This document shows positions 23,346 to 45,540 of a DNA stretch of 64,000 nt, piece by piece (positions within the stretch are counted from its first letter, which is position 1; every line of letters starts with the position of its first letter). Below the pieces are notes generated by a model. It saw only the letters and a program-made list of their open reading frames with translations, had not been told where the DNA came from and did no database searches. This DNA comes from Fulvivirga lutea. GTDB lineage: Bacteria; Bacteroidota; Bacteroidia; Cytophagales; Cyclobacteriaceae. Made by a program: the position numbers and the translations under genes. The stretch is taken from NCBI RefSeq assembly GCF_017068455.1, contig NZ_CP070608.1:2771488-2835487 (forward strand). Reading direction: 5' to 3'.

Positions 23346-24226
23346 TATTTCAATTCCTCATCTTTCGTCCAGATACCCCAATAAGCACCCACATCACCCT
23401 CTGAGCCTACCTTCCATGATTCATCAAATGAAGAAAAATAGAACATCTCAATTTTATCTTCTTTAGACCATTTCTGGGCATTAATAAAATACTTCATAAA
23501 GTTTTCTGCAGATGGAACGGCTCCATGAAGACTGCTTCCCTGACTTGGCCAACCCGTTTCTGTAATAATCACTTTTTTACCATTACCGGCTCTAAGTGCC
23601 TTATTATACATATCCTTCATATAGAGCAAAGAATAATCGCAATGGCAGCCTTCCCAGTACGGATAGCAATTGGCCAGTATTACATCGCAAGCTTCGGTGA
23701 TTTTTGGTCTGTGTTCGAATTCATAATAAGCATCTACATAGCCTACTGGTGTTCCGGGAATAGCTTCTTTTACCTGATAGATGAAGTCCAAAAGCTCTTG
23801 TTCAGAAAGATCCTCACGATACATCACCTCATTACCCACAGCGGCAATATCTACATAACCATCTTTGGTTGCTTTAATCAGGCCTTCAATTTCTCTTTTG
23901 TTGATTTCAGGATCATTGCCCAACCATGCACCCACTAGTGTTTTTAGACCATATTCCTTAGCTATTCGTGGTATGTGCTCGTTACCTTCGGTGCATGAAA
24001 ATGATCGTATCCATTTAGTGAATGGCTTTAAAATTTTGATTCTTCTGTGAATCTGTTCTTCGCTGAGCTGATCACCGGGTTTTTGTCCTTCTACATATGG
24101 ACTTATGCAAATGCCATGCATTCCATTTGCCAAGTGCTTTCTATATATTTTTAGTATATCATCATCTGATAAACTGTCAAAGTTTATTCCGGTGAGTGCA
24201 CTTAAACGTTCTTCTTTAAATGACAT
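23342..24226 (-). CDS. Cytosolic GH17 glycoside hydrolase
   Basis: A 294-residue GH17 (beta-1,3-glucan-active) domain and nothing else. The acid/base is E133 in AAVGNEV and the nucleophile is E223 in ITETGWPS. There is no signal peptide, so it should act in the cytosol on imported beta-1,3-gluco-oligosaccharides, either cutting them or transferring glucosyl units. It is the last gene of the ten-gene operon, 11 bases after the MFS-GH17 fusion. It shares more than half of its residues with that fusion's GH17 part, so the two arose by duplication. Exact linkage preference is not readable. Confidence 0.9.
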   Translation of the reverse strand: MSFKEERLSALTGINFDSLSDDDILKIYRKHLANGMHGICISPYVEGQKPGDQLSEEQIHRRIKILKPFTKWIRSFSCTEGNEHIPRIAKEYGLKTLVGAWLGNDPEINKREIEGLIKATKDGYVDIAAVGNEVMYREDLSEQELLDFIYQVKEAIPGTPVGYVDAYYEFEHRPKITEACDVILANCYPYWEGCHCDYSLLYMKDMYNKALRAGNGKKVIITETGWPSQGSSLHGAVPSAENFMKYFINAQKWSKEDKIEMFYFSSFDESWKVGSEGDVGAYWGIWTKDEELKY

Positions 24227-28104: not shown

Positions 28105-29394
28105 TTAATGACTCATTTCTACATTTTTTAATGGTGGAGTGTGAACATGATTCATCAGTGAATCGATATTACCACCATACGTTTTTTTAATTTTCTTACC
28201 GTCTCTGGTAAGACCGTTGAATATCCCCGAATCTACGTGCGGCCATAGAGCATATTTAGCATGCCCCGATTTAGTAAAGAGTCCAAAATGGTTTTCAGAA
28301 CCTTTAGGATTGTGTGCATCTTTCCATGGCTCATTAAATGCCTCGAAGTAAAAACAAGAAATTCCAGCTTTATTTGTCCACTCGCGTATTTGATTATAAT
28401 ACAGTCCTTGTTTGTATTCGTCAGTGGCCATTGAACCTTTTGAACCATAATGCCCATTTGAGACGGTAGCCCAACCGGTTTCTCCAATATGTACCGGTTT
28501 ATCGACTCCTATACTCTTCATGTAGGATACTACTGAGTCGTATTGATTTTGGGCAAATTGTAGCGATCTTTTCATGGCTGCATTAATTTTCTCTACTTCA
28601 CCCAAAGACTGCTCTTCTTCAGGCACTCGCCAGAATTCAGGATTGTAATGCGTGTTATGATAAGGGTAGGTGTGCATGGAAATGTAATCCACTTCTTGTA
28701 TCAGTGAATTCAAATCTGCTGTATGATATATAGGATCACCACCGCCCCAGGATGAAAAATCATCCGAACTTGTAATCCACAAATCTTCTGGTAGCTGTCC
28801 AGTACTTTTCAGGTTTTGAACGTGCCTAACCCATTTTAAAATAACGCCAGGCTGTACGTAATAGCTTTCTGCCCATTTAACCATAGCCTCGTTGCCTATG
28901 GCCAACACCTTTACTATATCTGGGTAAGTATTTACTAATTTTACTGCGCGTTCAATTTCACCTTCGTTTTGCTCACTTTCAATGTTATGATCTGGTGGTA
29001 ACTCTGTCCATGCATTTTTACAATCGATCCAAGCACCGAGCATCACATACATTTCAAATCCTTCCTGCTCTTGTTTAAGCTCAGTAATAGCTTTCAGTAC
29101 ATTGCCTGCATGTGGTAATTGAACATTATAAGTCCTAAGAATTTTAATGCCCATGGCTGAGAGAATCTTTAAATCATCCTTTAGCTGTTGAACCGTTGGC
29201 TGATCTTCTCTGGTTTTTGTTCTATAACCTCCGTACGATATGGCCAGATAATCTGGTTTGCCTAATATATCTTTTGCTGTCACTGGTTTGTTTTCTGTTT
29301 CTTTATTATTTGACTGATCCTTTTTTGTATTTGTGCATGACAACATACATGCTACCAAAGTAGTAATGAATATTATCTTAACTGCGCAATTCAT
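28105..29394 (-). CDS. GH17-like glycosidase, lipoprotein
   Basis: About 429 residues from ATG 29394, which gives a clear lipoprotein signal (IIFITTLVACMLSC). An earlier ATG at 29433 would add 13 charged residues and overlap the GH3 gene by 14 bases. The fold is GH17: acid/base in LAIGNEAM and nucleophile in HIGETGWATV. It is longer than, and distant from, the two cytosolic GH17 copies, with several insertions around KNAWTELPPDHN. It probably acts in the periplasm or at the cell surface on beta-1,3-glucan oligomers. Confidence 0.85.
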   Translation of the reverse strand: MNCAVKIIFITTLVACMLSCTNTKKDQSNNKETENKPVTAKDILGKPDYLAISYGGYRTKTREDQPTVQQLKDDLKILSAMGIKILRTYNVQLPHAGNVLKAITELKQEQEGFEMYVMLGAWIDCKNAWTELPPDHNIESEQNEGEIERAVKLVNTYPDIVKVLAIGNEAMVKWAESYYVQPGVILKWVRHVQNLKSTGQLPEDLWITSSDDFSSWGGGDPIYHTADLNSLIQEVDYISMHTYPYHNTHYNPEFWRVPEEEQSLGEVEKINAAMKRSLQFAQNQYDSVVSYMKSIGVDKPVHIGETGWATVSNGHYGSKGSMATDEYKQGLYYNQIREWTNKAGISCFYFEAFNEPWKDAHNPKGSENHFGLFTKSGHAKYALWPHVDSGIFNGLTRDGKKIKKTYGGNIDSLMNHVHTPPLKNVEMSH

Positions 29395-29419
29395 AACTCT
29401 TGTATTAATAATGGTTTCA

Positions 29420-31222
29420 TCATAATGCTTCATTATAGTTTAATCCGTAACCAAATGAGTACAATGGTTCAATGCTTTTATCCCAAAAATTAGGACCATA
29501 CTTACCGTTAAAATCATCGATAGATTTGGGCCAGGAGTGGGGTAACTTTCCTTTGAAGTCATGTTTTCCAAATAAAACTTCTGCAATACCATCACCTTCA
29601 GAACCTGGTAGCCAAGCGGCTACAAATGCATTAGACTTTTCTATTTCATCAGTAACAATCAATGGTCTTCCAGAGATTAATACCACTACCACAGGAATTC
29701 CTTTGTTATGATAGGTATCAATATAGCTTTTGTGTTGTTCTGTTAAGGTGAGTTGAAACATATCCATTTCACCGCCAACATCTCCAAAGAATTCCGCATA
29801 AGGTTTCTCACCCACTACAATTACAGCCACATCTCCATCGTACTTGCCCAATCCTTGCTTATCATAAATAATATTGTCAGAAGCCATTTCTTTAAACCCA
29901 TCTAATATAGTAGTAGCTCCCTTATAACTTTCTTCAGTTCCTTGCCAATGAATTGTCCAACCACCAGATTGAAGGCCTGAATTATCGGCAAATTCTCCCA
30001 CTACAATAATCTTCTGTTCTGGTTTAAGAGGAAGTATATTGTTATGATTCTTTAGAAGGACCAACGATTCTCGTACAGCTTGCTTGGCAACTTCACGATG
30101 TTTTTCAGAGCCTATCGACCCTATTAATTGCGAGCTGGGATATGGGTCTTTGAATAAGCCCATCTTAAACTTCATCTTTAGGATTCTTCTTACGGCATCA
30201 TTTATTCTTGATTCAGCAACTAAACTATCTTGTACTGCCTTTTTTAAGCCTTGCTGAAAGTCATCCAAGTCACCATCAACGGCCATAACCATGTCTATTC
30301 CTGCATTTATTATGTTATGCTCACCAAAGCGCGAGTAGCCTTTCCAGTCGGTAACAACGATACCTTCAAAGCCCATAGAATTCTTTAGCGTATCTGTTAT
30401 TAGAGTCTTGTGGGCATGCATAGATATGTTTTGAATAGTATTGAATGAAGTCATCACAGCACCTACACCAGCTTCAATTGCTGCCCGGTAGGGAGGAAGC
30501 AATCGTTCCATTACTTCTTTTAAATCTAATGTGGTTTCAGCGCCTTCAATACCATAATCTGTAGCGCCATCTCCAATAAAATGCTTTGCCGTTGCCATTA
30601 CGGATGTAGGTTCTGTTAAGCTGCCCTGGTGGCCTTCAACGGAAGCTCTGGCCATCTGTGTTGTTACCTCTGTGCTTTCAGAAAACGCTTCATACACACG
30701 ACCCCATTTCTCATTATAAGGTATTGCAATACATGGTGAGAACACCCAGTGGAAACCAGTGGCCCTCGATTCTATGGCAGTAATTTCTGCTGCTTTCTTC
30801 ACTAAATCAATATTTCCAGATGCACCAAATCCAATGTTGTGAGGAAAAATTGTGGCTCCCTCAAACGTATTTTGGCCATGAACGGCATCAACACCAAAAA
30901 AAAGAGGGATTGCATGAGTTTGTGATAAAGCCTTTTTTTGAAATTCTTCAAATTTATTTTGCCACTCTAAGGCTGTCTCACCAGGTAGGGGACCTTCGGT
31001 ATGAATAATAGCACCTAAATGTTTATTCGCAATATTTTCATCAAAATGACGCACCATTGTCATCTGGCCTATCTTTTCTTCTAAAGACATCTTTGCGATT
31101 AGAGAATCGGCCTTTTGTTCTATGATTTCGTCTTCTGAGATACCTTGGGTCATATTATTACAAGCATTATAAACAGCTATGAGCATAAATATTATGAGTC
31201 CGTAGCTGTTGAGATACTTCAT
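29420..31222 (-). CDS. GH3 beta-glucosidase
   Basis: A 600-residue exo-acting GH3 enzyme. An N-terminal hydrophobic segment ends in VYNAC, a weak lipobox. The TIM-barrel domain includes KHFIGDG and the nucleophile Asp in VVTDWKGY (about residue 295). The second domain contains ESLVLLKNHNNILPL and the GDVGGEMD loop. It is expected to release glucose from the non-reducing end of beta-glucan oligosaccharides in the periplasm. It lacks the FnIII domain of longer GH3 enzymes. Its ATG overlaps the stop of the phosphorylase gene (TAATG). Confidence 0.92.
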   Translation of the reverse strand: MKYLNSYGLIIFMLIAVYNACNNMTQGISEDEIIEQKADSLIAKMSLEEKIGQMTMVRHFDENIANKHLGAIIHTEGPLPGETALEWQNKFEEFQKKALSQTHAIPLFFGVDAVHGQNTFEGATIFPHNIGFGASGNIDLVKKAAEITAIESRATGFHWVFSPCIAIPYNEKWGRVYEAFSESTEVTTQMARASVEGHQGSLTEPTSVMATAKHFIGDGATDYGIEGAETTLDLKEVMERLLPPYRAAIEAGVGAVMTSFNTIQNISMHAHKTLITDTLKNSMGFEGIVVTDWKGYSRFGEHNIINAGIDMVMAVDGDLDDFQQGLKKAVQDSLVAESRINDAVRRILKMKFKMGLFKDPYPSSQLIGSIGSEKHREVAKQAVRESLVLLKNHNNILPLKPEQKIIVVGEFADNSGLQSGGWTIHWQGTEESYKGATTILDGFKEMASDNIIYDKQGLGKYDGDVAVIVVGEKPYAEFFGDVGGEMDMFQLTLTEQHKSYIDTYHNKGIPVVVVLISGRPLIVTDEIEKSNAFVAAWLPGSEGDGIAEVLFGKHDFKGKLPHSWPKSIDDFNGKYGPNFWDKSIEPLYSFGYGLNYNEAL

Positions 31223-34200
31223 TACTTTAATATTGATTCTTCAATTGCTACTTCGACTTTATTGATTGTGCCACTTCTCTTAAAAATTTCATGACTCATT
31301 GCCTTATCCAGTGTCAACCCATTAATTGTTGCGGGGCCATTATCAGCATATATTTTAATTTGATTGGCATCACTAATTTTGTAGACGATTGGAATTTGAC
31401 AATAGGTAAAAGCAAGTGCATTTTTTGGAATAGGAATAGCGTTGAGATTTGAATTCAAATCATAATACTCAAACATTTTCTCTTGCGTGAGAAACTCATT
31501 TTTCCTAAGCATAACAGGTTCAAAACTTATTTTCCCCTGGCTAATTTTTATTCCTAATTCCCCAAATCTGCTTAGGATGTCTTCTTTTACTTGCCCAGTC
31601 ATACCTGGTTGCTGCGCACCTTTTCCCATCGGGGTGTGCGAATAAGGGTCAGTAGGAAATGCGCCATACAATTCAGGAGATTTATGCACTCCAATACCTT
31701 CATTAATTTCATAATAGTGTTCCAGCAACCTACCTATCGTTTCGGCAGTTTCTTCCAATTCTATTGCCTCCAAACAACATTCTTGAGTAGCCAATGAAAG
31801 TTTGGAAACCATATGCCAATAAATGGAGCCTAGCCCTTCATAGCCAAAAAATGTACCTGAACGGCCTGTAAATTCTTTATGATTAAATACTTCTTCAAAC
31901 ACCTCTAAAACGAACTCACCATCTTTTTTTACAAGATTTGCAAAATCCGTCTCCTGCATTTGTTCTAAGGCAGTCTTTAAATCATTCGCATTTTTGAAAT
32001 TGCCATTAAAATGGAACTGCCCTTTAACATCTTGCTCTATAATTCGAGTGTTTCCTTCTGAAATGAGTTTATTTAGTAACTCAGATTTTTCAACCGCAGC
32101 TTGTGGAATATTATTTTTTTCTAAAAATCCAGGTAGATTTTTGTTAGGATATAACAAATAGCTGTACTGGTCTGGTCTAAATAACGCACTTGACTTCAGC
32201 GCATCGAGCACTTCTAATGCCTGATTTGGATTAAGATATTTACTACTAAGCACTGCCACTTGGCCTTCCAGCATTTCATCTAAATATTCTATGGAAATAC
32301 CATTGGCCTTGACAGACATGATATTGTAGGCGTGATACATGTTATCATCTCTTTTGTTGGCTTTTATAGTATGTTCTAAGTATTTAAGAGCCGTAGAAAC
32401 AAAGGTTTTTAATTCTTCTACTGTTAATTCAGATTTGGATCCTGAAAAAGAGCTATTGTAGATATTACCTCTGAAATCACTTGCTGCACGTCCTAAACTA
32501 TCAGTAACTTTCTTACGGTTTACATCGTCAAAATTTCCTTTTAATAACTTCTCATGGTCCATAAGGCCTTGCTGTATACCTTTGAAACATGTAACTAATT
32601 CGCTGGAAATTTTTACTGAATTAGATTCACTAGGCAACAGGTTGTTTAAAAATTTTAAAAAGCGATACAAGTAATAGAGCGTTACCATTGACACCCCATT
32701 TCCAACTAGTGCATTGTTTGCATCATTCCATTCCGGGCGCTGAGTGTTCATCCAAATACCGCCTTCAGGAATAAAATTGGATATTTTCGCTAGAACCGAT
32801 GCCAGAAGTTTTTCAATCAGATTTACTTTATGTATTGCTCCGGATTGATTGAGTAATAATGAACTATCTGCACCAATTTTATCATGACGCTTTTCAATTT
32901 CATGATCCGCTTGTTCATCAAAATCAATCGTGTCTTTAGGGTTGGCTAGTATCTGGTCATAGCTTTTTATTCTATAGGGAACATTAGCGTAAACGAATAT
33001 TTCATCATTGAAATATTTATTGAGATTACCTGGATAGTGATTTTCGCTAATCTCAAGAAACTTTAATAAGTATATGATTTGATGATCGCCCCAATAGCCG
33101 ATATATGACCATGGATCATCCGGCTCAATTTTCTCCCAGTCAATACCATCCTTCGTGATTCTGTAGGGATTGTACCCGTCAAACGTTGAGGCATTCAGGA
33201 ATCTGAAGATCATACCATCAATGAACTCCGGATAGGAGTGAGCAAGAGCTTCCCAATTCTGAAATATGTCACGCCAATTGCCTTCATAATCCAAAATTTT
33301 AGAACCGTCTTCATTGTGAGTGTTGATTGAGAATTGGTTCCAAGGACGGCTCGGGTCACCATGCCTACGACTAAACTTTAATGGCAAATACTCCAAACTC
33401 AGTCGCTTTAAATCAGAATCATCCGTTTGCTTTTCAAGCTTTTTAATAAAATCCAGAGAGATAGTCTCTTCAAGTGACTCAAGGTACTTTTGATTGTTTT
33501 TAAATACCTCTTTGTTAGCCTTTTTGATATACTGGCAAAAGTCATCTTTGTCAATTCTGTAGTCATCGTCAAAAATACCACCACGCATAATATTAAAGAG
33601 TGTATTGGAGAAATGCCGCGCATCTCTTAATCCATCTTTTGTAATTTGTAGTGCGTCTGATGATGCGTTTAATTGAATTAGTTTATTTGTGCCAGCCTCA
33701 ATATCTTTTTCTAATTCCGTTAAAAGTTGTTGGCTATTTTTTAATTGTTCGTTTAACGCTACTATAGCACTGATTGTGTTATTAACATTGGCAACTATTA
33801 GCCAGTTTTTATCAGCATTAGGCTGTAGTTCAATAGAAGCTGAAATTAAGTATGCACCTTTTTCAGCTTTTACATCCGTTTCCTCAATAAGGTCTGAGCC
33901 TTTTCTGAAGTTATTGAGTTGTTTGGAAGATAAGAGATGCGTACAATTTTCGAGACCCACCGACCAAGCAATGTTCGCTTTCAATGCTTCACTTGGTTCA
34001 GCTCTATCTACTATAATGGCACTCAACGCAAATATTCCAATTCCTGACTCAGTGTTTAATTCGCTACGTTTATAAGCATCTACCAGGTTACTACGAACAT
34101 CCTGAATGGCACTACCTACACCAAAAGGAATAATGTTTTGTATTCCATCGATAACTTCTACCTGAACCTTTGAATTACTATTATTCTGAAGCCTGCTTTT

Positions 34201-34632
34201 CCTAACAAAACCAAATTTTTTACTCGTGTTCCATTCGTATTGAAACGTTAGCCCCAGGGTTTGATTAACTTCTTCGAAGAGTATTTTATTTCCATAGGCG
34301 CTTTTATACAGATTTCTTGTCAGTTTGTATTGTGCATAAAATCTGACAGAGAATGGTTCCCATACTTTTAAACCAGATTCTGTATTTATTCTAATAATTG
34401 TTTTACTACCTGTATTTTCAGCTGATTCGATGATTTTATCATCGGTGTAGTAGGGGAAAAGGGCGTATTCAGAATTTTTTCTGCCTGCAGTTAATCCACC
34501 ATTGCTACCAATAAACATCCAGTGGTTGGAGTCACTAACGATGCTCATAAAAAATGGTCTAAGCTGATCTACATCAGATATCTTAAAAAATGTTTCCTTG
34601 TTTATTAAAACTTGTGTGATTTGTTGATCCAA
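31222..34632 (-). CDS. Large GH94-clan glycoside phosphorylase, probable GH149 beta-1,3-glucan phosphorylase
   Basis: 1136 residues, no signal peptide, hence cytosolic. The N-terminal part (HWMFIGSNGGLTAGR, YALFPYY) is the beta-sandwich of GH94-like phosphorylases. The helical barrel carries PEWNDANNALVG, in which D637 lies where the GH94 catalytic Asp lies. A further indicator is SHTPMGKGAQQPGMTG near the end. Length, cytosolic location and GH17/GH3/GH16 neighbours fit GH149, which phosphorolyses beta-1,3-glucan oligomers to glucose-1-phosphate; GH161 is the main alternative. The family call is from memory. It is coupled to GH3 by a one-base overlap. Confidence 0.78.
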   Translation of the reverse strand: MDQQITQVLINKETFFKISDVDQLRPFFMSIVSDSNHWMFIGSNGGLTAGRKNSEYALFPYYTDDKIIESAENTGSKTIIRINTESGLKVWEPFSVRFYAQYKLTRNLYKSAYGNKILFEEVNQTLGLTFQYEWNTSKKFGFVRKSRLQNNSNSKVQVEVIDGIQNIIPFGVGSAIQDVRSNLVDAYKRSELNTESGIGIFALSAIIVDRAEPSEALKANIAWSVGLENCTHLLSSKQLNNFRKGSDLIEETDVKAEKGAYLISASIELQPNADKNWLIVANVNNTISAIVALNEQLKNSQQLLTELEKDIEAGTNKLIQLNASSDALQITKDGLRDARHFSNTLFNIMRGGIFDDDYRIDKDDFCQYIKKANKEVFKNNQKYLESLEETISLDFIKKLEKQTDDSDLKRLSLEYLPLKFSRRHGDPSRPWNQFSINTHNEDGSKILDYEGNWRDIFQNWEALAHSYPEFIDGMIFRFLNASTFDGYNPYRITKDGIDWEKIEPDDPWSYIGYWGDHQIIYLLKFLEISENHYPGNLNKYFNDEIFVYANVPYRIKSYDQILANPKDTIDFDEQADHEIEKRHDKIGADSSLLLNQSGAIHKVNLIEKLLASVLAKISNFIPEGGIWMNTQRPEWNDANNALVGNGVSMVTLYYLYRFLKFLNNLLPSESNSVKISSELVTCFKGIQQGLMDHEKLLKGNFDDVNRKKVTDSLGRAASDFRGNIYNSSFSGSKSELTVEELKTFVSTALKYLEHTIKANKRDDNMYHAYNIMSVKANGISIEYLDEMLEGQVAVLSSKYLNPNQALEVLDALKSSALFRPDQYSYLLYPNKNLPGFLEKNNIPQAAVEKSELLNKLISEGNTRIIEQDVKGQFHFNGNFKNANDLKTALEQMQETDFANLVKKDGEFVLEVFEEVFNHKEFTGRSGTFFGYEGLGSIYWHMVSKLSLATQECCLEAIELEETAETIGRLLEHYYEINEGIGVHKSPELYGAFPTDPYSHTPMGKGAQQPGMTGQVKEDILSRFGELGIKISQGKISFEPVMLRKNEFLTQEKMFEYYDLNSNLNAIPIPKNALAFTYCQIPIVYKISDANQIKIYADNGPATINGLTLDKAMSHEIFKRSGTINKVEVAIEESILK

Positions 34633-34714: not shown

Positions 34715-36994
34715 TTATGGGTTAAGAACGATGGACACATTATCGATATTTGCAGTTACTCCACAGCCGGCCGGCCCGCATACACCTTGAATAAGCAGTG
34801 ATAAACCACCATTGGTATTTGAACCACCAGGTATTGTGTATGTTTGAGTATAGGTAGTCCAATCTGCAGATAAGGTTGGGTTTTGGCCCATTGCGCCAAA
34901 ATCCACAGTTATAGGGTCTCCAGCTTCGCCTTCGCCAAGTTCTACAAAGAGTAGTACACCAAATACACCGCCATCACCTTGTAATGTCCCTTTATGATCA
35001 AAACTAATTTGAACAACATCACCAGCTTGAACAGTTCCTATCCCGAACCTTTCTTTTTTAATACCGGGATTACCACCAGGTCCAACGACTTCAATTTTAG
35101 CAGAATTAGAACCGCCATTATTTTCAGTATTATCGATACTTACTGTTCCACCATTGTTAAAAAATAGCCAATCGCCAGGTGCATCTGCTATACCATTTTC
35201 AGGATCTTCAAAACCAGGGTTGACAATTAAATTGCCGTCAACAGGATCACCGCCACCACCTCCGCCTCCGGAGCCGCCACCCGTACTAGCACTTAACGAA
35301 ACTTTATCAATTACTACAACACCAACATCAGCACCCATATCAAATAAAAGTCTATTACTTTCATCACCACCGAAAGGTGTTCCAGTATCATCTGCGTTCG
35401 TTGTAAGTTCAACCGAATACATAGTTGGTGTATCATTTATTTCTAACCAGGTAGTATCAGCTTCAAAATCACCAAAATTTTGTCCCAAACCAACAACAAT
35501 AGTTCTGTTTCTATCAGAAGAAGCTTCAAATGATAAAGTGTAAGTTTGTCCCATTACCAAGTTTACCTCTTGACTTAGGTTTACATCAAAAGGTGCTCCA
35601 GCAACGGTAGGATTTGCGAAAGTATAGTATTCAGTTCCATCATCAGTCCTTACATCTAACGCATTTCCAAACCATCCGGTACCATCACCAGTTTGAAAAT
35701 CTCCGTTTACAAGACCAACAACTACCTCTCTTGTTACAGGATCAGCGGCATTACCAGCAGCATCGCTCACATTATAGGTGAGGGTATAGGTTCCTGCAGT
35801 ATTTGCATCGACATTTCCTGAAACTACAATGTCTCCTGTAATATCACCATCAATATTATCAGCTGCGGTAGCTCCTGGGTCGTTGAATGTATCACCTGTA
35901 ATAAATTTAAATGGATTGTCACCACTTAAAGTAATAACTGGCTTTACAAGATCTGCATCTGAAACAATCACTGTTCTAATTACCTCATCAGCTGCATTTC
36001 CTGCTGCATCTGTTACGTTATATGTAACTTCATAACTCCCTTCAGTATTGATATCTAGAGCTGAATTATCTATTATAATGTTCCCTGAAATGTCACCATC
36101 AATATTATCTATCGCAATTGCTCCTAGTTCTACATATTCTTCACCTGTAACAACAGCAACTGTGGCATCACCATTTAGAGTAATAACAGGAGGCGTAGTA
36201 TCTACAGTGGCACTTTGAATTACATCATCAAAATAAAATGTACCTGCAGTAGTGCCTGGGCCATCTGCAAATAGAGTAAAAATTGAGTAGCTATCAGAAG
36301 CACTAAAATCAAACGTTATGACTTCCCAGCCTGTTCCTCCATGACTTTCAGTAGCCTCTACCTCGTCTACATCGTCACCTTCTAATTTGGCTAGGACATC
36401 AATTGGAGTATCCGACCAGAAACTCATGGTAACTGAACGTTCAGTTTCTAAGTTCAGGTTATTTCCTAGATCAAATGATACACCTTCAAACTCGGCACCA
36501 CTATTTATTATGGCACCTACATTCGTGCTCTTGTTATTTGATCCTGATTCATCTGGGTTTGCCACAACTTCAAAAGAGGCGCCACTGAATACATATGCTT
36601 CATAATTTACACTTGTGTCATCAAAAGTAATGGGAAGGCTAACAACCTTTTTTACAACAACAGAAATGGTATCTGAAAAAGTGTTTGAAGCCCCTGCTGA
36701 ATTCAGGGCAGTTAAATTTACAATATATGTGCCATTTCCATACGTTTTGGTAGGCTCTTCATCTGTTGAGGTAGTTTCATCACCAAAATCCCATAGATAC
36801 GAATCGGCATTTTCCGAAGTATTTTCGAAGGTTACTGTTCCTGAATTTTCGTTTAGTTCAAAATTGAATCCTGCAATTACCTGAGGTAAATTCTCATCTT
36901 CGTCACCACAACCTGCGAAGAGAATAATAATGGCAAATGCTGGAATTGTTAATAAATAATTTAGAATATTTCTCATGATTGGAAGCTTTTTCAT
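34715..36994 (-). CDS. Surface lipoprotein with PKD, Ig-like and carbohydrate-binding domains
   Basis: 759 residues, lipoprotein signal ending FAGC. Domains in order: PKD (about 35-115, with LWDFGDETTS), a carbohydrate-binding-like jelly roll (about 120-265), two DUF5011-type Ig repeats (about 268-425, each beginning PVITL.GD), another jelly roll (about 430-570), a Gly/Ser linker, and a final CBM-like domain beginning NLIVNPGFEDP. No catalytic residues are apparent. It probably holds glucan at the cell surface, taking the place of SusE/F or SusD-type binding proteins, which are missing here. Confidence 0.85.
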   Translation of the reverse strand: MKKLPIMRNILNYLLTIPAFAIIILFAGCGDEDENLPQVIAGFNFELNENSGTVTFENTSENADSYLWDFGDETTSTDEEPTKTYGNGTYIVNLTALNSAGASNTFSDTISVVVKKVVSLPITFDDTSVNYEAYVFSGASFEVVANPDESGSNNKSTNVGAIINSGAEFEGVSFDLGNNLNLETERSVTMSFWSDTPIDVLAKLEGDDVDEVEATESHGGTGWEVITFDFSASDSYSIFTLFADGPGTTAGTFYFDDVIQSATVDTTPPVITLNGDATVAVVTGEEYVELGAIAIDNIDGDISGNIIIDNSALDINTEGSYEVTYNVTDAAGNAADEVIRTVIVSDADLVKPVITLSGDNPFKFITGDTFNDPGATAADNIDGDITGDIVVSGNVDANTAGTYTLTYNVSDAAGNAADPVTREVVVGLVNGDFQTGDGTGWFGNALDVRTDDGTEYYTFANPTVAGAPFDVNLSQEVNLVMGQTYTLSFEASSDRNRTIVVGLGQNFGDFEADTTWLEINDTPTMYSVELTTNADDTGTPFGGDESNRLLFDMGADVGVVVIDKVSLSASTGGGSGGGGGGGDPVDGNLIVNPGFEDPENGIADAPGDWLFFNNGGTVSIDNTENNGGSNSAKIEVVGPGGNPGIKKERFGIGTVQAGDVVQISFDHKGTLQGDGGVFGVLLFVELGEGEAGDPITVDFGAMGQNPTLSADWTTYTQTYTIPGGSNTNGGLSLLIQGVCGPAGCGVTANIDNVSIVLNP

Positions 36995-37002: not shown

Positions 37003-37806
37003 TTATCTATAGACCCTAACATAGTCTACCTCCAAAGTCTGAGGAAAGACTGTATTATCGCTTGGAGAACCAACAAAAGTTCCACCAACAGCCAGGTTAA
37101 TTAGTAAATAGAATGGTTTATTAAATACCCATTCTCCTGTCACATCACCGGGAGTAATTTGGTTGTACAATACATCGTCTACATAAAAATTAATGTAATT
37201 AGGACCCCATTCAATACCAAAAACATGAAATTTGGTGTCAAACCGATCGTTAGTTAAGGTATAACTTTTGGTTATCGCCTCACCAGCGGAGTATCCAGGT
37301 CCATGTACAGACCCTAAAACAGTGGAAGGATCCTGCCCACGAAACTCCATTATGTCAATTTCACCAGCGCCAGGCCATGGATTTATAACTATATCAGCAC
37401 CTAGCATCCAGAAAGCAGGCCAAATGCCTTGTCCCCAAGGCAGCTTCATTCTTGCTTCAAAACGGCCATATTGCTGTTCAAATAAGTCTTTGGTGAGTAT
37501 TCTTGAAGAAGTGAAACCAGATCCTTCGAAATTTTCTTTAATGGCCGTTATTTTTAATACACCATCTTCAACTCTAACATTCTCAGATCTGTTTGTATAA
37601 TATTGAAGCTCTTGATTACCCCATCCATTATCACCCGTTCCAATATCAAAATTCCATAATTCTGGGTTTGGAGCTCCGTTCGTATCAAATTCCTCTGCTA
37701 ATACAAGTGTGTTTAGGGTAACTACCTCTTGTTCATCACCTTCACAACCAACCATGCATCCTAATAGGAGAATGGGTAAGAAATATTTTAAACTTAATTT
37801 ATTCAT
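37003..37806 (-). CDS. GH16 laminarinase (endo-beta-1,3-glucanase), lipoprotein
   Basis: A jelly-roll GH16 enzyme of about 267 residues with the full signature GEIDIMEFRG; the two glutamates are nucleophile and acid/base. A lipoprotein signal precedes it (LLLGCMVGC). ATG 37806 is preferred to an in-frame ATG at 37830 because it starts the signal peptide cleanly. It cuts beta-1,3 (and mixed-linkage) glucan internally, probably at the outer surface. The single-domain architecture without a CBM is compensated by the two binding lipoproteins beside it. Confidence 0.93.
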   Translation of the reverse strand: MNKLSLKYFLPILLLGCMVGCEGDEQEVVTLNTLVLAEEFDTNGAPNPELWNFDIGTGDNGWGNQELQYYTNRSENVRVEDGVLKITAIKENFEGSGFTSSRILTKDLFEQQYGRFEARMKLPWGQGIWPAFWMLGADIVINPWPGAGEIDIMEFRGQDPSTVLGSVHGPGYSAGEAITKSYTLTNDRFDTKFHVFGIEWGPNYINFYVDDVLYNQITPGDVTGEWVFNKPFYLLINLAVGGTFVGSPSDNTVFPQTLEVDYVRVYR

Positions 37807-37833
37807 CATGTCAATTTTCAAATTCATCATGTA

Positions 37834-39300
37834 TTAATCTTTGTAGAAATAAATATTATCAACGAAAATATCAGTTATTCCACCTTGCACGAAAACTACT
37901 CTTGCCACATTGCTTAGGTTAGGAGACCCTGCACCTCCACCGCCTGTTCCCTGTGTGAATGCATTCAATGGTATATCAATACCTATCCAAGCGCCTTCTT
38001 CTAGTTCACTTCCAAGTACATTAAAACCACCGGCAGTATCGTCTGATACACCTAAGCCAGTATCTGTATTATCTGGTCCAAAATCGATGATTTCTACCAC
38101 TAATACAGCTGAGGGGTCAAATTCTTGTGTTACCTGAATATCAAGGTGTAGAAAAGACATACCCGATACATCTACGGTACCATCCCAACCGAGACCAACA
38201 AAATCAATATTACTGTAAGCCAAGGCAGGATTACCTGCAATGTCTATTACAGCAATATCAATAGGGCCACCGGCACCTGGACCATTAAAAACTGCTGGTT
38301 GAAAACCACTCACACTTGCATATGCATCGCTGTATATTGAAACAACATTTTCTGGATCACGAGCAGGTGGTGTATCTGGTACAGGAATATTTCCTACTAC
38401 ATTTAGTGCAATAGACCCGAAGGCTTCAATACCGTTAATTTCTGCAGTGATAACAGCATTACCTCTTTTTAGATTTGTAACCTGTCCTAGTTGATTAACT
38501 CTTGCCACTTCTGGATCACTTGAGTGAAAATCAAAATAACGCGGAGCTACACTAACAGTTAAATCCTGACCAGTTCCCAAATTAAATGTTTCAGCGAAGG
38601 GGCCAAGTTCTAGTGTTACGCCAATAAAAGTTTCTGTTTCTATATCTTGACCTTCCAAAATGGATGGGCGTGGTTGTGCAATTGTACCTAGTTTTTCGAA
38701 TCTTAATTCGTCAATCCAAAAAGTCCAGCCAACTTCGTTACCGTTAGGTACTCCGTCAGGGTCTATGCCACCGGCCGAAAATTCAAATACATTTCTTTCT
38801 TCAATGAGAAAGGAGGGGTCAGGTATAGGTATGATATATTGCTGCCAGTCGGTAGAAAGACGAACGTTTGATGCTGCAACTCTATATTCTAGACCAAATC
38901 CAACTTCACCCAAAACTCCTGCTTGTGATCCTTTAGCCCAAAAGGTTAGGGCATCAAATTCGGTAAGGTTTCTACCTGCACCATCAATAACGAAGCTCGC
39001 ACCTGCGAAATTTCCACTTGGATCAGTGGCATTAGGAACATCGATTCTAATGGAAGCTTGACCCTGATAGGCTTCAGTTTCATCTACGGAAAAAACATCT
39101 GGCTTGGCTCCATCTCCAACAAAAGGGAAATAGAAATTTGAACCAAGGCCAACAAACGTGTCTGTGAAAATATCTCCTGTTTTGGCAAACGTAGCAAACC
39201 GCACATCTTCTGACGGTTCTCTCTCACAACCAGTAATTGTTAAAGCAAATAATGCCAGAAACAGAATTTTAGAAGTTGTTATCAATTTTATATTTTTCAT
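37834..39300 (-). CDS. Lipoprotein with CBM-like jelly rolls and an Ig (BIG_2) domain
   Basis: 488 residues, lipoprotein signal ending ALTITGC. An N-terminal jelly roll (about 40-205) resembles carbohydrate-binding modules of the CBM11/CBM4 kind. A bacterial Ig-like repeat follows (about 225-305, EVARVNQLGQVTNLKRG). A second jelly roll ends DIFVDNIYFYKD. No enzyme motif. It is a likely surface glycan-binding protein, just downstream of the barrel fusion and three bases before GH16. Confidence 0.8.
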   Translation of the reverse strand: MKNIKLITTSKILFLALFALTITGCEREPSEDVRFATFAKTGDIFTDTFVGLGSNFYFPFVGDGAKPDVFSVDETEAYQGQASIRIDVPNATDPSGNFAGASFVIDGAGRNLTEFDALTFWAKGSQAGVLGEVGFGLEYRVAASNVRLSTDWQQYIIPIPDPSFLIEERNVFEFSAGGIDPDGVPNGNEVGWTFWIDELRFEKLGTIAQPRPSILEGQDIETETFIGVTLELGPFAETFNLGTGQDLTVSVAPRYFDFHSSDPEVARVNQLGQVTNLKRGNAVITAEINGIEAFGSIALNVVGNIPVPDTPPARDPENVVSIYSDAYASVSGFQPAVFNGPGAGGPIDIAVIDIAGNPALAYSNIDFVGLGWDGTVDVSGMSFLHLDIQVTQEFDPSAVLVVEIIDFGPDNTDTGLGVSDDTAGGFNVLGSELEEGAWIGIDIPLNAFTQGTGGGGAGSPNLSNVARVVFVQGGITDIFVDNIYFYKD

Positions 39301-39310: not shown

Positions 39311-42300
39311 TTATTGTCCGATGTTTATGTGAACATATGTTCTGAATTCCCACTCGTTGCCATCTGGAAAACCCACTGGACTTATAATAGGGGATGTGGC
39401 AAATTCATCAGCTGCTAGCGGAGCATATCTTGGGGAATACTGATTCAATGATCTCCAAGTAAAGCGCGCACCAATAGTTGTATTTGGTAAAATAAACCAA
39501 TCTTGTTTGCCTGCAGAGGTTGAGATGTCAGCCATCAACTGTAATGGGAAGGTTAAGTTAAAATCTCTGTGGTAGTCAAAAGGACCCCAGTCGTTCACTT
39601 TAACATGCGACATCAATTTCATTTTCTTGTATATCACTCTTACTTCACCACCATATCTCTCTATACTTCTTGGATCCGGGCCATTTGCCTGTCCGTTTCC
39701 ACCGTAGAGATTACCTATTATCCCCAGTTCAGGATTTAGTTTGGATACGATGCGTGCATGTACTTCCCATAAGTCAAGTGCAGGTGGTGCGCCATCAGCC
39801 GCACTCGGTGTTCGGCCAGTTCCCGGAAAAATAACAGCAGCATCTTGTGAAGTTGGCAAGTGTCTATACACAAAACCGAAACTTGCTGCTAATTTGGCAT
39901 CTTCTGCTCTATCATTGTCCCATTCATACATCCAGGAGCCTGGAGTAGGGTCATAAGTGAAAAGAATTTCACCTGCTACTGTTTCTCTGTTTGCTCTTAC
40001 TACAAATGGATCGTCCAGTATATTTCTTAATCTTCCGGGTCCTCCTGTATCTCCAGGCATTGGATCTACAAGTGGCTTTTGATATAAGAAATTAGGTGCT
40101 ATTTGCCATTTTCCAATACCGTAAGTAAAACCAGTTAAAACATTGGTTTGATTACCACTTCCACTGTCTTTTAACCTCCAGCCAGTAAAGGTTTGTGTGT
40201 AATCTCCTCCACCATTGGCTACTAACCCCATGGCAGCTGTGGATGCATACCAGTTTATTCTTCCACCTTGATATGTCAACTTTACTTTTCCACCCCAAGT
40301 GTCGTCAGCACTTACTTCATCAACGAATACCTGGTAATTTCCTTCTTCACCTCTGGCAAATTGAAATTCCCGACCAACAAGTGGTTGCCCACCCCAGATT
40401 CCACCAACTTCCACTTTCAATTTATCGAATTCAGTTTCGGCATGTAAGGTTACTCTTCTTGTCTTTGGTTGTGGAACAGCAATAGATGTTACTGCTGCTC
40501 CAGGGTTTTCAATATCCTCATGGAAGATACCAGTCACTTTAAATCTATCAATATGTTTGGTGTATTTTACGAGTAGTGCCGGGTTAGCTCCCCACCAGAG
40601 TTCCCTACCATACGCCAGTTTGAGGCCTTTAAACATTTTTTTACCTTCTACTTCCACGCCTTGTGGTGCCAGGCCACCGTAGATATCAAGGTTAGGTCCG
40701 TAGTTAGCTTCTGGATATAATCCGAAAAAGTCACCTTCATACCCCCAATGGTAATGGCCTGTTCTGTAGAATCCCTCCAGATTAAAATATTCATGATTCC
40801 AGCTATATTCTGCTTGATAAACGGATAGTCGGTTTAATTGAGTGGGCACTGGATCATTTCCATTTTGGGTGTTAACGAAGTCTGTACGGCCACGCGCTTC
40901 ATAGAATAACTCGTTAATAGGATTTTCAGCAACATTACCCACAACGTTAAAGGTTACTTCTGCTCTAATATTTGATGCAGGGTTTGCTTCGAAACCGATA
41001 AAATAGGATTCCATATGATCGAACCCTAATTCACTAGGAAAGACTGGGTTTGTTGGATCGGGTTCGTCAGGGGTAGTTATTAATTTACCACCAGTATTGA
41101 ATGTGCTAAATTCTGCTCTAAGTGTGCTTAGTTTTATTTTTCCACCCTGATCGGCTTTTAAGGCAGCTTTATCACCTCTTGCTTGAGATACGGCATTCGT
41201 TAATTGTATTCCCAGGAAATGACTTTCTACACTTTCCCCTGTAAGTCCGGGGTAGTAGGGATCAAATGAATGTACTTCTTTCAAAGCATAGTAAGCTGCA
41301 CGTGGGTACAGTGTATATAAACCTCGAGCATCTGTTTGGCCCTTTGCACAGATACCAAACCACTCTTCATTCATATTATTTGCTCCTTGCTTAAAATCGC
41401 TTGTGTAGCCACCGTTTGCCCAAGAAGCTTCGGTATTATGTATATCCAATTCTTTCGTTTGGCCTCTTTTCCACCATCCATCACTAAATTGAAAGGTAAA
41501 ACCACCTATAGAGTTGCCACTTTTTCCTAGGCCCGCAGCATTCGCGTAAATATCATTCCAGTTATTAACCATGTAAAAGGCCTGAGATTTTTGATCCTCT
41601 CGATTTTCTATTGCGTTATATGCATCGGCACCGAATTCAGCAAATAGTATTGGTTTACCTAACTCATTTTTAACTCGTTCAAAAGCATCTCCGAATGAAG
41701 CTCCTCGGTACATATTGGTACCATATATATCTATGTCTGGACACTCTTCTTTTACTAAATCCAGATATAATAAATCACCATTACAAATGGCGACCGGGTG
41801 AGAGGGGTCTAATGATTTCATTTCTAGAACTGCTTCATTAAATAATTTGTACATTGCCCGAGCTCTCTTACGTATAGTCGAACTTTCACTATCAATAGGA
41901 ATATCTTCGGTTTCTGCTCCGCCCCAAGAAAGGCCATAGTTATTTTCGTTACCTAACATATATAAAAGAAGACCCGGAGTGTCTTTATATTCGTTAGTTA
42001 AATCTCTTACAGTATTTAGAAGTAAATCTCGTACTCTTTCATCTGCATATTCTGTGTTTGCCAGCCAAGTACCATTAATGGTTAAGCCGTATCGTCCGAA
42101 TGAATCATTAATCATGGTGTAGATACCATAGTTTTCATAGATATACTTCACCCATTTTGGTTGTATACCAACGTATACTCTAATGGCATTCACTCCCATG
42201 TTCTTTAATAGAGACATCTCTGCATCTAAAGCTGCCTGAATAACATCATCAGGTTGTTTCCATAGACTATATGAATAGTTTGTTCCTATAGGCACATAGT

Positions 42301-42448
42301 CCCAGTTCATACCATTAATCATGAAGTCTTTTCCATTAACTTTTAGCTTAAATCCCTCACTGCTTTTTACTACAGTTACTTCATCAGCCTGAGCATTTGC
42401 AGTGGTAAGGGATAAAAGAAAAAAAATGACTAAGTAGAATTTTTTCAT
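39311..42448 (-). CDS. Clan GH-A glycosidase fused to a probable outer-membrane beta-barrel
   Basis: 1045 residues, with a Sec signal ending ANAQ. Residues 25-400 form a TIM-barrel glycosidase of GH2/GH5 type: acid/base E168 in LGNENNYG, nucleophile E271 in LFAEFGAD. From about residue 465 the sequence changes to long alternating strands rich in aromatic residues (LKLAYGRELWWGA, EFRTYVHINIGQ at the end), which looks like a large outer-membrane barrel of a dozen or more strands. It is the first gene of the operon. It may cut glucan at the surface and pass products through its own pore; the barrel is my inference. Confidence 0.75.
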   Translation of the reverse strand: MKKFYLVIFFLLSLTTANAQADEVTVVKSSEGFKLKVNGKDFMINGMNWDYVPIGTNYSYSLWKQPDDVIQAALDAEMSLLKNMGVNAIRVYVGIQPKWVKYIYENYGIYTMINDSFGRYGLTINGTWLANTEYADERVRDLLLNTVRDLTNEYKDTPGLLLYMLGNENNYGLSWGGAETEDIPIDSESSTIRKRARAMYKLFNEAVLEMKSLDPSHPVAICNGDLLYLDLVKEECPDIDIYGTNMYRGASFGDAFERVKNELGKPILFAEFGADAYNAIENREDQKSQAFYMVNNWNDIYANAAGLGKSGNSIGGFTFQFSDGWWKRGQTKELDIHNTEASWANGGYTSDFKQGANNMNEEWFGICAKGQTDARGLYTLYPRAAYYALKEVHSFDPYYPGLTGESVESHFLGIQLTNAVSQARGDKAALKADQGGKIKLSTLRAEFSTFNTGGKLITTPDEPDPTNPVFPSELGFDHMESYFIGFEANPASNIRAEVTFNVVGNVAENPINELFYEARGRTDFVNTQNGNDPVPTQLNRLSVYQAEYSWNHEYFNLEGFYRTGHYHWGYEGDFFGLYPEANYGPNLDIYGGLAPQGVEVEGKKMFKGLKLAYGRELWWGANPALLVKYTKHIDRFKVTGIFHEDIENPGAAVTSIAVPQPKTRRVTLHAETEFDKLKVEVGGIWGGQPLVGREFQFARGEEGNYQVFVDEVSADDTWGGKVKLTYQGGRINWYASTAAMGLVANGGGDYTQTFTGWRLKDSGSGNQTNVLTGFTYGIGKWQIAPNFLYQKPLVDPMPGDTGGPGRLRNILDDPFVVRANRETVAGEILFTYDPTPGSWMYEWDNDRAEDAKLAASFGFVYRHLPTSQDAAVIFPGTGRTPSAADGAPPALDLWEVHARIVSKLNPELGIIGNLYGGNGQANGPDPRSIERYGGEVRVIYKKMKLMSHVKVNDWGPFDYHRDFNLTFPLQLMADISTSAGKQDWFILPNTTIGARFTWRSLNQYSPRYAPLAADEFATSPIISPVGFPDGNEWEFRTYVHINIGQ

Positions 42449-42705: not shown

Positions 42706-45540
42706 ATGAACACTTATAAGTTAATTACTTCTTACACTTCATTTATTCTTGTACTTGTATCGTTAATTACTTCTGCACAAAAAAATAGTGGTGTATATCC
42801 CATTAAAAATTTTGGTCCCCAAGAATATCAGGCGGGAATTCAAAATATTGATTTTGCTCAAAATAGAAATATGAATTTGTTTGTAGCCAATAATTTGGGA
42901 GTGCTCTCTTACAATGGCAGCAAATGGGAAACACATGCTTACAGAAATGGAAAGAAGCAACGTTCATTAGAATTTGACCCTGAGACTAATAGACTATATG
43001 TTGGTTCACAAGGTGATTTCGGATTTTTTGAGAAAAATTGGCAGTATACATCCCTTTTAAAATTAATTCCTGATGGTGCACCAGATTTCGATGAAGTTTG
43101 GGACGTGTTCATCTTTGATTCCAGGGTATATTTCTGCACTTTCCAATCAATTTTCGTATTTGACGGTGAATCTATCAGTGTTATTACTAACGATTCTGGT
43201 TTCAATAGATCATTCAAAACCCAAAACAGATTATTTACACAGGATCAAAATGGAAAATTATACGAGGTTGTTGGTTTAGAGTTGGTTCCAAGTATTAAAC
43301 AAGGCCAAGAGAATTTAATTGTCTCTGGAATTATTTCTATTGATCAAGGTCATTTAATATTCTATAATTCCGGTAAAGTAGAACTATCAAATTCAGTTGA
43401 GGTAAGTACAGTTTATCCAGAACTTATTGAAACACTATCGGGTAATTATATTAATCATGTTACGCAACTATCAGATTCACGGCTATCAATTGCAACACAA
43501 AGAGCTGGGATATTTTTGTTTGATATTCAAAATAGAGTCATTGAAAATATCAACACTTCTAATGGATTACAATCTAATGCCTGCCTAAGGTCGTTTCAAG
43601 ATTATTCAGGCAATTTGTGGGTTGGCATGCAAAATGGCTTGGCCTTGTTGGATATTAATTCACCAATTAGGCTTATTGGGAATGAGATTAATATACAGGG
43701 AAGTGGTTATGAAGCCTATCAAAGACCCGAAGGTACATACTATACTACTTCTAATGGAATCTACTTTCTAGCAAATGAGGCACTAGAATGTAAGTTTCTA
43801 TCTGGCACTGAAGGCCCTGCATATGGCATAGAGATGATAAATGATGCGATTTATGCCGGTCATCATACAGGCCTATTCCGTCTTAAAAATGGCGAAGCTA
43901 TACGCGTAGCCAGCACCGATGGACTTTGGGAAGTTAAACGTTTAAGGTCTAACCCAAACTATGCGCTTGCAGGCACTTATTCGGGGTTGTACCTATTTGA
44001 AATTGATAAAGATGGAACGTTGAAAGCAAAGCAGAAACTTCAGGGATTCCAGGAATCCAGTAGGTTTTTTGAAGAAGATAAAAATGGTGCAATATGGGTT
44101 GGGCAGTTTTATAAAGGACTTTATAAACTCGAGTTAAGCAATGATCTTGAAATTAACTCAGTGAAGAGGATTACCAGTGATCAAGTATCGATTGAAGAAC
44201 ATATAGTATTAAGCGAAATTAACGATGAACTTTATTTAGCAGCCAAAACAGGTGTTTATCAAATTGACCAGGATGATAATGTAATTTCAAAAAGTGAAAA
44301 ATTCAATACTGAGTTAGATGGCCAATGGGTGTATCTTTTAACTCAGGATAAAAATAAAAATGTGTATGTTTTTTCAGAAAATAAGGTAGGATTTTATAAA
44401 CCGGTTAGTCTGAGTAATTATCAGTTTGTCCCTTCATCGCTTTATCAATTAAGACATTCGTTTAATAATGATTTACTGAATGTATCAGTGAACGTAGAAA
44501 ATGGAGTTTATTTTAATGCGAATGAAGGGTTTATTCATTATAGTCCACTTGTTGAAAACCAAATAGTCTTAGATAAAAAGCCTGTTGTGAGTAGTATTTT
44601 CAGCGTAGATGAAGACACATTATTATTCGCTCGGCTGCCTTTCGAAGATATAATACTTACAAATAGCTCCATTTCATTTAAAGAGGTTAAAGACCTGCAA
44701 TTCACCGTTGAATCATTCAAATTCAAAAATGTTGACAACCAGCAATTTAGATATTTATTAGAGGGCTTTGACAAAGAGTATTCAGACTGGACCGTTTCCC
44801 CAGTTAAAGAATACACGAACCTACCAGCCGGCAAGTATAAATTCTATGTACAGACTCTGGATTATCTAGGTGAACGTTCAACGAGCGAACCATTAACAAT
44901 AACCGTGAAACCGCCATTCCTTAAAACGAAATGGATGAAAATGATTTACGGTTTAATAGCCATTACATTGATTGTACTGCTTTATCGCTTTCAGCGCTAT
45001 AGATATAAAGGCAAAGAACGTAAATTAAAAAGAGACAAACAGGCAGAATTAGAGCAGAAACAGAGAGAACTACAGAGCCTGAAAGAAGAGAAAATACAAA
45101 GTGAACTAAGACATGTTAACAACCTTTTGGCAGCTTCTACAATGAATTTGGTAGTTAAAAATGAATTCATGGAGAATATCAAAGAAGAGTTAAATGAAGT
45201 AAGGCAAAAAGGAACAGCGCCAGAAACTAGTAAATCACTTGAAAGAATAATTAAAGAGATTGATACCACTTTAAAACTCCAAGAGGATTGGAAACAATTC
45301 GAGTACCATTTTGATAAAGTACATGGAGACTTTCTAACCAGGTTAACTACAGAGTTTATAGATCTAACTCCAGGCGAACAAAAGCTTTCAGCATTTCTCA
45401 GGCTTAAAATGGATACCAAGGAAATAGCCAATTTAATGGGTGTTTCTCTGAGAGGCGTTGAAGTAGCGCGCTACAGGTTAAGAAAAAAACTAGGATTAGA
45501 TAAACATCAAAATCTTTCGAAGTTCATTTTGGAGTACTAG
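42706..45540 (+). CDS. Propeller/Y_Y_Y-domain LuxR regulator of glucan use
   Basis: 944 residues. A signal peptide is followed by about 600 residues of beta-propeller repeats with two-component-regulator features (NLWVGMQNGL, AIWVGQFYKGLYKL), and a Y_Y_Y domain (about 660-745). Then come one membrane helix (MKMIYGLIAITLIVLLYRF), a coiled coil rich in Lys/Glu/Gln, and a C-terminal LuxR-type HTH (LTPGEQKLSAFLRLKMDTKEIANLMGV). It lacks the histidine kinase of hybrid two-component systems, so a sugar sensed in the periplasm would act directly on DNA binding. It is divergent from the glucan operon and three bases before the sugar porter. Confidence 0.9.
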   Translation: MNTYKLITSYTSFILVLVSLITSAQKNSGVYPIKNFGPQEYQAGIQNIDFAQNRNMNLFVANNLGVLSYNGSKWETHAYRNGKKQRSLEFDPETNRLYVGSQGDFGFFEKNWQYTSLLKLIPDGAPDFDEVWDVFIFDSRVYFCTFQSIFVFDGESISVITNDSGFNRSFKTQNRLFTQDQNGKLYEVVGLELVPSIKQGQENLIVSGIISIDQGHLIFYNSGKVELSNSVEVSTVYPELIETLSGNYINHVTQLSDSRLSIATQRAGIFLFDIQNRVIENINTSNGLQSNACLRSFQDYSGNLWVGMQNGLALLDINSPIRLIGNEINIQGSGYEAYQRPEGTYYTTSNGIYFLANEALECKFLSGTEGPAYGIEMINDAIYAGHHTGLFRLKNGEAIRVASTDGLWEVKRLRSNPNYALAGTYSGLYLFEIDKDGTLKAKQKLQGFQESSRFFEEDKNGAIWVGQFYKGLYKLELSNDLEINSVKRITSDQVSIEEHIVLSEINDELYLAAKTGVYQIDQDDNVISKSEKFNTELDGQWVYLLTQDKNKNVYVFSENKVGFYKPVSLSNYQFVPSSLYQLRHSFNNDLLNVSVNVENGVYFNANEGFIHYSPLVENQIVLDKKPVVSSIFSVDEDTLLFARLPFEDIILTNSSISFKEVKDLQFTVESFKFKNVDNQQFRYLLEGFDKEYSDWTVSPVKEYTNLPAGKYKFYVQTLDYLGERSTSEPLTITVKPPFLKTKWMKMIYGLIAITLIVLLYRFQRYRYKGKERKLKRDKQAELEQKQRELQSLKEEKIQSELRHVNNLLAASTMNLVVKNEFMENIKEELNEVRQKGTAPETSKSLERIIKEIDTTLKLQEDWKQFEYHFDKVHGDFLTRLTTEFIDLTPGEQKLSAFLRLKMDTKEIANLMGVSLRGVEVARYRLRKKLGLDKHQNLSKFILEY

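Follow-up and report, generated by a model that had tools for sequence, protein, structure and literature searches.

A glycosidase fused to a predicted outer-membrane barrel

The window analysed here is a stretch of 64,000 nucleotides from Fulvivirga lutea (assembly GCF_017068455.1, contig NZ_CP070608.1, positions 2,771,488 to 2,835,487 of the forward strand), in which the gene heading a glucan operon, here called FUS, joins a predicted TIM-barrel glycosidase to a predicted outer-membrane beta-barrel. FUS lies on the minus strand (39311-42448) and, starting from an ATG, encodes 1045 residues, the plus strand over the same interval being packed with stops. The protein begins with the signal peptide MKKFYLVIFFLLSLTTANA-Q and ends in HINIGQ, and a lipobox heuristic scored only 1 of 80 family members as a lipoprotein. 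A sequence-only reading of this DNA had described the signal peptide, a TIM barrel with glutamates E168 and E271, an aromatic-rich run of strands (about 580 residues in that reading, ~608 here) and the HINIGQ end, all of which were found (Table 1). The fusion is genuine rather than a product of chance, being complete in all of the best 80 loci from a search of genome contigs (62-75% identity; further loci exist).

All 58 rows of an alignment keep both glutamates, E168 (motif LGNEN) and E271 (FAEFG), and in the AlphaFold model E168 stands directly after strand 160-166 and E271 within strand 267-272. In clan GH-A, the acid/base glutamate follows beta4 and the nucleophile glutamate lies at beta7. 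As modelled, the N-terminal domain fits a retaining glycosidase of this clan, with a TIM barrel and both glutamates in the right places. Membership of GH2 was rejected: the only GH2-related Pfam match is Glyco_hydro_2_C (residues 35-279, E 2e-7), and the TIM fold begins straight after the signal peptide, where a GH2 enzyme normally has jelly-roll and Ig-like domains ahead of it. GH158 is among the best-matching solved folds, with a weak profile match (E 0.007); the GH158 and GH157 beta-1,3-glucanases compared (BuGH158 6pal, GH158(Pro) 9p25 and LaGH157 9g4n) are 16-21% identical to the FUS domain and, unlike FUS, are stand-alone enzymes with no membrane barrel.

The C-terminal ~608 residues fold into about 26 strands in the AlphaFold model and resemble PapC, LptD, BtuB and MOMP in Foldseek/VIA-align comparisons, the exporters usher, LptD and AlgE also being among the structural matches. 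The whole domain matches PapC/FimD ushers, LptD and MtrB, whose partners and functions differ and which show no sequence match; a profile of the barrel found no sequence match among PDB chains at E<=10. Taken together, the predicted models show the marks of an outer-membrane barrel, namely a signal peptide, an even number of amphipathic strands (their exact count being uncertain), long outer loops alternating with short periplasmic turns, and a C-terminal strand. Because the AlphaFold model, the structural matches, the alternating loops and a polar, conserved lumen face agree, this domain is very probably an outer-membrane beta-barrel, as the sequence-only reading had suspected; the soluble beta-sandwich or carbohydrate-binding array which that reading had named as the contrary outcome did not emerge from structure prediction and is ruled out by the modelled strands and the barrel matches. 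Two known barrel classes were also rejected. A TonB-dependent receptor is contradicted by the lack of any Plug or TonB-receptor Pfam match at E<=1, the glycosidase occupying the place of the plug, and a type V autotransporter by the lack of a Pfam match at the same threshold and by the roughly 26 strands, autotransporter C-terminal barrels having 12.

The FUS operon

FUS heads a run of same-strand genes separated by small gaps or overlaps, in the order FUS, CBM488, GH16, PKD/CBM4, GH149, GH3, GH17, GH30, MFS-GH17 and GH17. By gene content the run is a beta-1,3-glucan (laminarin) utilisation locus, because GH16, GH17, GH30 and GH149/GH3 occur together with a sugar transporter, and the earlier view of FUS as the leader of a glucan operon is borne out by the same genes. 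In 79 of the 80 loci the first operon gene recognised behind FUS is CBM488; under a stricter spacing test it follows FUS in 69 of 79, and GH16 then follows in 58 of 60. Beside the divergent regulator, a sugar-porter MFS gene (45544-46949, plus strand) is broken by a frame change into a 137-residue and then a 325-residue piece, and would be either a pseudogene or a sequencing error.

Table 1 Features of FUS and its neighbours in the window
Feature	Coordinates	Strand	Basis
FUS: signal peptide, GH-A TIM barrel, helix and predicted outer-membrane beta-barrel, 1045 aa	39311..42448	-	
Signal peptide, residues 1-19, ANA|Q, type I-like, no lipobox	42392..42448	-	read from sequence
TIM-barrel glycosidase domain, residues 24-393, predicted clan GH-A	41270..42379	-	
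E168, predicted acid/base, invariant	41945..41947	-	alignment, AlphaFold
E271, predicted nucleophile, invariant	41636..41638	-	alignment, AlphaFold
Linker helices, residues 404-435, conserved ARGDKAAL	41144..41239	-	alignment and AlphaFold model
Predicted outer-membrane beta-barrel, residues 438-1045, about 26 strands	39314..41137	-	
Long loop, residues 563-595, strongly conserved, near-invariant H565-Y566-H567-W568-Y570	40664..40762	-	
CBM488: predicted surface glycan-binding lipoprotein, 488 residues, 10 bp downstream of FUS	37834..39300	-	Pfam: sub-threshold Big_2 only
GH16 endo-beta-glucanase, predicted surface lipoprotein	37003..37830	-	
PKD/Ig-like/CBM4_9 lipoprotein, predicted surface-exposed	34715..36994	-	
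GH149 beta-1,3-glucan phosphorylase, no signal peptide seen	31222..34632	-	NCBIfam equivalog, 1791.6 bits (cut-off 1150)
GH3, beta-glucosidase type	29420..31222	-	
GH17 (GH17a)	28105..29433	-	
GH30, beta-1,6-glucosidase type	26596..28101	-	Formosa (PMC6246565) and Muricauda (PMC13188888) papers
MFS_2-GH17 fusion, inner-membrane transporter and glucanase	24238..26592	-	precedent in PMC6246565
GH17 (GH17b), final gene of the run	23342..24226	-	
Divergent regulator, Reg_prop/Y_Y_Y, weak C-terminal LuxR/sigma-type match	42706..45540	+	

Distribution of the fusion

In a second sample of 395 Bacteroidota genomes, among them that of the window, 34 have the barrel: in 33, it and the TIM domain share an intact frame of 1028-1084 residues, and in one (G270) the frame, on contig C53, is broken through decay or a draft error. 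None of the 395 has the barrel as a separate intact gene; one genome with the fusion, G239, additionally carries a 99-residue end fragment of it. The TIM domain occurs in 44 genomes, the 34 with the barrel and 10 without (open frames of 354-480 aa), the latter including one cut by a contig end (G367) and one distant at 38% identity (G113).

On a tree built from 81 fused rows together with 12 stand-alone ones, of which two come from relatives of the window's genome, the stand-alone glycosidases are scattered rather than grouped together. One of them, at locus L175, falls among the fused rows and looks as if it had lost its barrel; SusC/SusD genes (SusCD) lie upstream at this locus, which would fit a pore that had become dispensable. 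A single origin of the fusion was considered and set aside, as the fused/stand-alone label takes 5 changes on the tree, of which starred branches force only 2, and the bootstrap had not stabilised. The trio of FUS, CBM488 and GH16 is also found in Persicobacter and at a Bacteroides finegoldii locus (L180, NZ_OY725931.1), where the binding protein is 33% identical and two other genes and bglX follow. The latter contig is labelled a plasmid and yet carries genes for valine-tRNA ligase, rpsA and glutamine synthetase, so that it looks chromosomal; it has no annotated SusCD. A contig from a metagenome-assembled genome (MAG) named as 'Thermoanaerobaculia' (L077) has a fusion nested in the Saprospiraceae rows and is likely mis-binned or transferred.

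SusC/SusD and TonB-dependent receptors

A Pfam search of the window's genome found no PF07980, PF14322, PF12771 or PF00593 match inside the window, in agreement with the earlier statement that the operon lacks SusC/SusD, and no susC/susD pair immediately beyond the operon, the place where, by that reading, such a pair would have counted against its proposal. The closest SusD match is ~131 kb away, and the closest TonB-receptor match, ~46 kb away, is not accompanied by a SusD match. This genome has two PF07980 SusCD pairs, one next to alpha-amylase/SusE-like genes (L133) and the other next to peptidase/asparaginase-like genes (L134), as judged from the translations rather than from a family search. 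Two SusD-like_2 places (G000:C1:91494-92933 and 3860147-3861586) have equal scores and each adjoin a TonB-receptor match, perhaps through a recent duplication.

The combination of susCD with carbohydrate-active enzymes (CAZymes) that marks a canonical polysaccharide utilisation locus (PUL) is absent from the window and from 44 of 51 well-flanked relatives. Within the stretch covered, an iterative profile search returned a SusC match in 8 of the 80 loci and a SusD match in 7. Five of the 33 intact-fusion genomes have no PF07980 match, two of these five having SusD-like_2, and G088, G103 and G290, which are 99-100% complete, have no PF07980, PF14322, PF12771 or PF12741 match. The fusion is thus retained where no SusD is recognisable. 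In these SusD-free genomes, the fusion loci run FUS, CBM488, one or two other genes, GH16 and MFS, with a GH17b match added at L183, and the 20 kb examined contained no SusCD homolog and no Plug domain. Between CBM488 and GH16 at these loci stands a protein of 415-423 aa with no match to the queries used (L182 17048-18313, L183 4772-6019, L186 14759-16030). Stand-alone loci have SusCD in 3 of 12 cases (L137, L174 and L175, several of the 12 on short contigs) and fused loci in 7 of 51, numbers too few for a conclusion on whether stand-alone glycosidases go with SusCD.

Orientation of the glycosidase

An even number of strands, together with short turns on the side where both chain ends lie, argues that the N-terminal domain faces the periplasm, and the same topology argument has been used to place the N-terminal domain of the Cyc2 cytochrome-porin there (PMC8406198). 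Bacteroidota surface lipoproteins carry an export signal of acidic residues near the lipidated cysteine (PMC5080379), which was scored with a simple script as at least two acidic residues at +2 to +7 after the cysteine. Matches below 80 bits, GH16-type proteins above 340 aa, open reading frames cut by the locus end and the distant L179 were left out beforehand, as were rows with no lipobox (CBM488 12, GH16 17, PKD-CBM4 9, GH17a 12, GH3 8, GH30 13, stand-alone 6). Among the remaining lipoprotein calls, the surface-type signal is present in 61/68 CBM488, 48/55 GH16 and 22/22 PKD-CBM4 proteins, as against 2/34 GH17a, 0/5 GH3, 4/17 GH30 and 1/5 stand-alone glycosidases. On the strength of the barrel topology and the signals of the stand-alone homologs, the fused glycosidase is likely to be periplasmic, at the exit of the pore. 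The 'surface hydrolysis' that the sequence-only reading had assigned to the fused enzyme is probably wrong, given this topology and the non-surface-type signals in 4 of the 5 lipoprotein-type stand-alone homologs.

The arrangement just described can be reversed, with the glycosidase passed outward in the manner of an autotransporter such as EstA, the barrel serving for export and anchoring only and helix 404-435 spanning the pore. The order enzyme-helix-barrel matches the autotransporter layout, and loci of this kind often include surface glucanases; yet FUS differs from autotransporters in strand number and has no autotransporter Pfam match, the strong conservation of its lumen face is unlike a plain anchor, the lipoprotein-type stand-alone homologs mostly lack the surface-type signal, and the locus already has binding lipoproteins and a GH16 that is probably at the surface. 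We therefore consider this a distinctly less likely arrangement.

A proposed import mechanism

The reading we prefer, with a probability of roughly 0.57, is that FUS is an outer-membrane barrel of about 26 strands with a periplasmic GH-A glucanase under, or partly plugging, the pore, and that it imports glucan oligosaccharides together with surface partners. That it works as an import channel seems moderately probable, perhaps independently of TonB. CBM488, as a glycan-binding protein, and GH16, both probably surface lipoproteins, would partner FUS, and GH16 would cleave laminarin-type beta-1,3-glucan at the cell surface. Oligosaccharides would then traverse the barrel through its polar, conserved lumen and conserved aromatic loops, of which loop 563-595 is a candidate glucan-binding constriction. 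On their emergence the fused glycosidase would trim them, keeping an inward gradient and trapping the product with no TonB-driven plug. GH3, GH17 and GH30 would carry on degradation in the periplasm, and the next steps, at the inner membrane and in the cytoplasm, would fall to the MFS-GH17 fusion and GH149. The computed support lies in the barrel fold, the operon, the conservation and the occurrence in genomes with no recognisable SusD; the orientation, a glucan-open pore, the direction of transport, TonB independence and the exact substrate and linkage we infer. Tentatively, and at somewhat less than even odds, FUS would be a SusCD-independent polysaccharide importer of the outer membrane, a giant pore in which a glycosidase replaces the plug and uptake is both driven and gated by hydrolysis at the exit instead of by TonB energy, paired with an inner-membrane transporter-glucanase so that each membrane would have a hydrolysis-coupled transporter.

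Several observations weigh against import by FUS. The TIM domain is better conserved than the barrel (3.50 vs 3.31 bits), and short turns and long loops are almost equally conserved (28% and 34% near-invariant). The models are of middling confidence, with mean predicted local distance difference test scores of 74.5 and 76.9 and a full-length predicted template-modelling (TM) score of 0.54, and Foldseek gives the barrel low TM-scores (0.25-0.36 by query length), which makes both the number of strands and the placing of the domains uncertain. Contrary to the signal rule, the GH30 of the window shows acidic residues behind its cysteine (CNNDEKEPM), and the stand-alone sample is small, with 5 lipoprotein calls among 11. 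Gene order varies, GH16, GH149, GH30 and MFS preceding the fusion in G180 (L184). A SusD match lies within 10 kb of the fusion in at least 4 of the 33 genomes (G090, G139, G261 and G390), and G088, G103 and G290 hold 37, 34 and 16 Plug domains elsewhere, so that another TonB-dependent receptor could import glucan even in the SusD-free genomes.

Observations of this last kind lead to a different view, in which the barrel has no pore function and only tethers a periplasmic glucanase, oligosaccharides entering through a SusCD or another TonB-dependent receptor encoded elsewhere. PF07980 SusD is found somewhere in 28 of the 33 intact-fusion genomes, TonB receptors in all four genomes searched for them, and a SusCD pair within 10 kb of the fusion in 7 of the 51 loci flanked by more than 9 kb on both sides, while the stand-alone homologs manage without a barrel. 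So large a barrel would nevertheless be costly where lipidation suffices, as it does in several stand-alone homologs; moreover, its conserved face is the lumen, the fusion is kept in three genomes with no recognisable SusD, and it is the barrel-less L175, among the fused rows, that has SusCD upstream. A mere tether thus appears unlikely. Export of a self-made beta-glucan edited by the fused enzyme, suggested by the usher, LptD and AlgE matches, is highly improbable, as no synthase was found among the operon genes searched, the gene set (GH16, GH149, GH3, GH17, GH30, sugar MFS) looks catabolic and a like-ordered Formosa locus responds to laminarin (PMC6246565).

Relation to published loci and known systems

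In PUL 2 of Formosa Hel1_33_131, GH16 m24690 was detected with laminarin only; GH17A (24720), GH30 (24730) and GH17B, the last within an MFS-GH17 protein (24740), are clustered and work in a cascade (PMC6246565). The MAG of this strain (L071) has the order FUS, CBM488, GH16, PKD, GH149, GH17a, and judging by the locus tags and this order FUS would lie two genes ahead of that GH16. The strain also has SusCD-like transporters, which were credited with the periplasmic uptake of labelled laminarin (PMC6246565). A similar Muricauda cluster includes a GH2 beta-glycosidase, which we take to be FUS, and the available portion of that account makes no mention of a membrane barrel (PMC13188888). A variant 1 laminarin PUL with no susCD (PMC10108472) and multi-CAZyme loci with no susCD, some of them gammaproteobacterial (PMC10811738), have been reported. 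A search of open-access PubMed Central literature, by titles and the openings of abstracts, found no paper on the fusion, which is no proof of absence; the locus type is already published as a laminarin PUL, and it seems that the barrel and what it signifies have been overlooked.

With SusC/SusD importers and the published laminarin PULs (Formosa PUL 2, Muricauda and the variant 1 PULs of North Sea MAGs), the FUS locus shares its substrate class and the pattern of a probable surface binding lipoprotein, an endo-glucanase and a large outer-membrane barrel, and the enzyme set of those PULs is nearly equal to that of the FUS operon (GH16, GH149, GH17, GH30, MFS and MFS-GH17). Unlike SusC, the FUS barrel is joined to a glycosidase, lacks a SusD and gave neither a Plug nor a TonB-receptor match. 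Cyc2 has the same layout of signal peptide, N-terminal domain (a redox domain in Cyc2) and C-terminal porin, and its N-terminus is predicted to be a periplasmic plug (PMC8406198), but it has 16 strands and transfers electrons, and its domains are unrelated to those of FUS, for which glycan hydrolysis is predicted. Another parallel is the MFS-GH17 fusion FbGH17B (PMC6246565), a transporter covalently tied to a glucanase, as FUS would be, with a similar gene in the FUS operon (24238-26592); it is a helical MFS protein of the inner membrane, and FUS would be its outer-membrane counterpart.

Significance

The fusion is real, conserved and widespread in Bacteroidota, and import is the function we propose for it. 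To our knowledge there is no earlier example of a hydrolase-porin fusion for glycan uptake, and laminarin uptake by Bacteroidota is mostly interpreted through SusCD. Laminarin contains more than 10% of the carbon dioxide fixed per year (PMC11345257). If the proposal is true, surveys that count SusCD pairs overlook one import route, the enzyme-pore fusion being filed as 'GH2', and the fusion might account for laminarin loci reported without susCD (PMC10108472). It also raises the question of whether hydrolysis at a pore exit can substitute for TonB. The fusion may be an overlooked second route for algal sugar into Bacteroidota cells.
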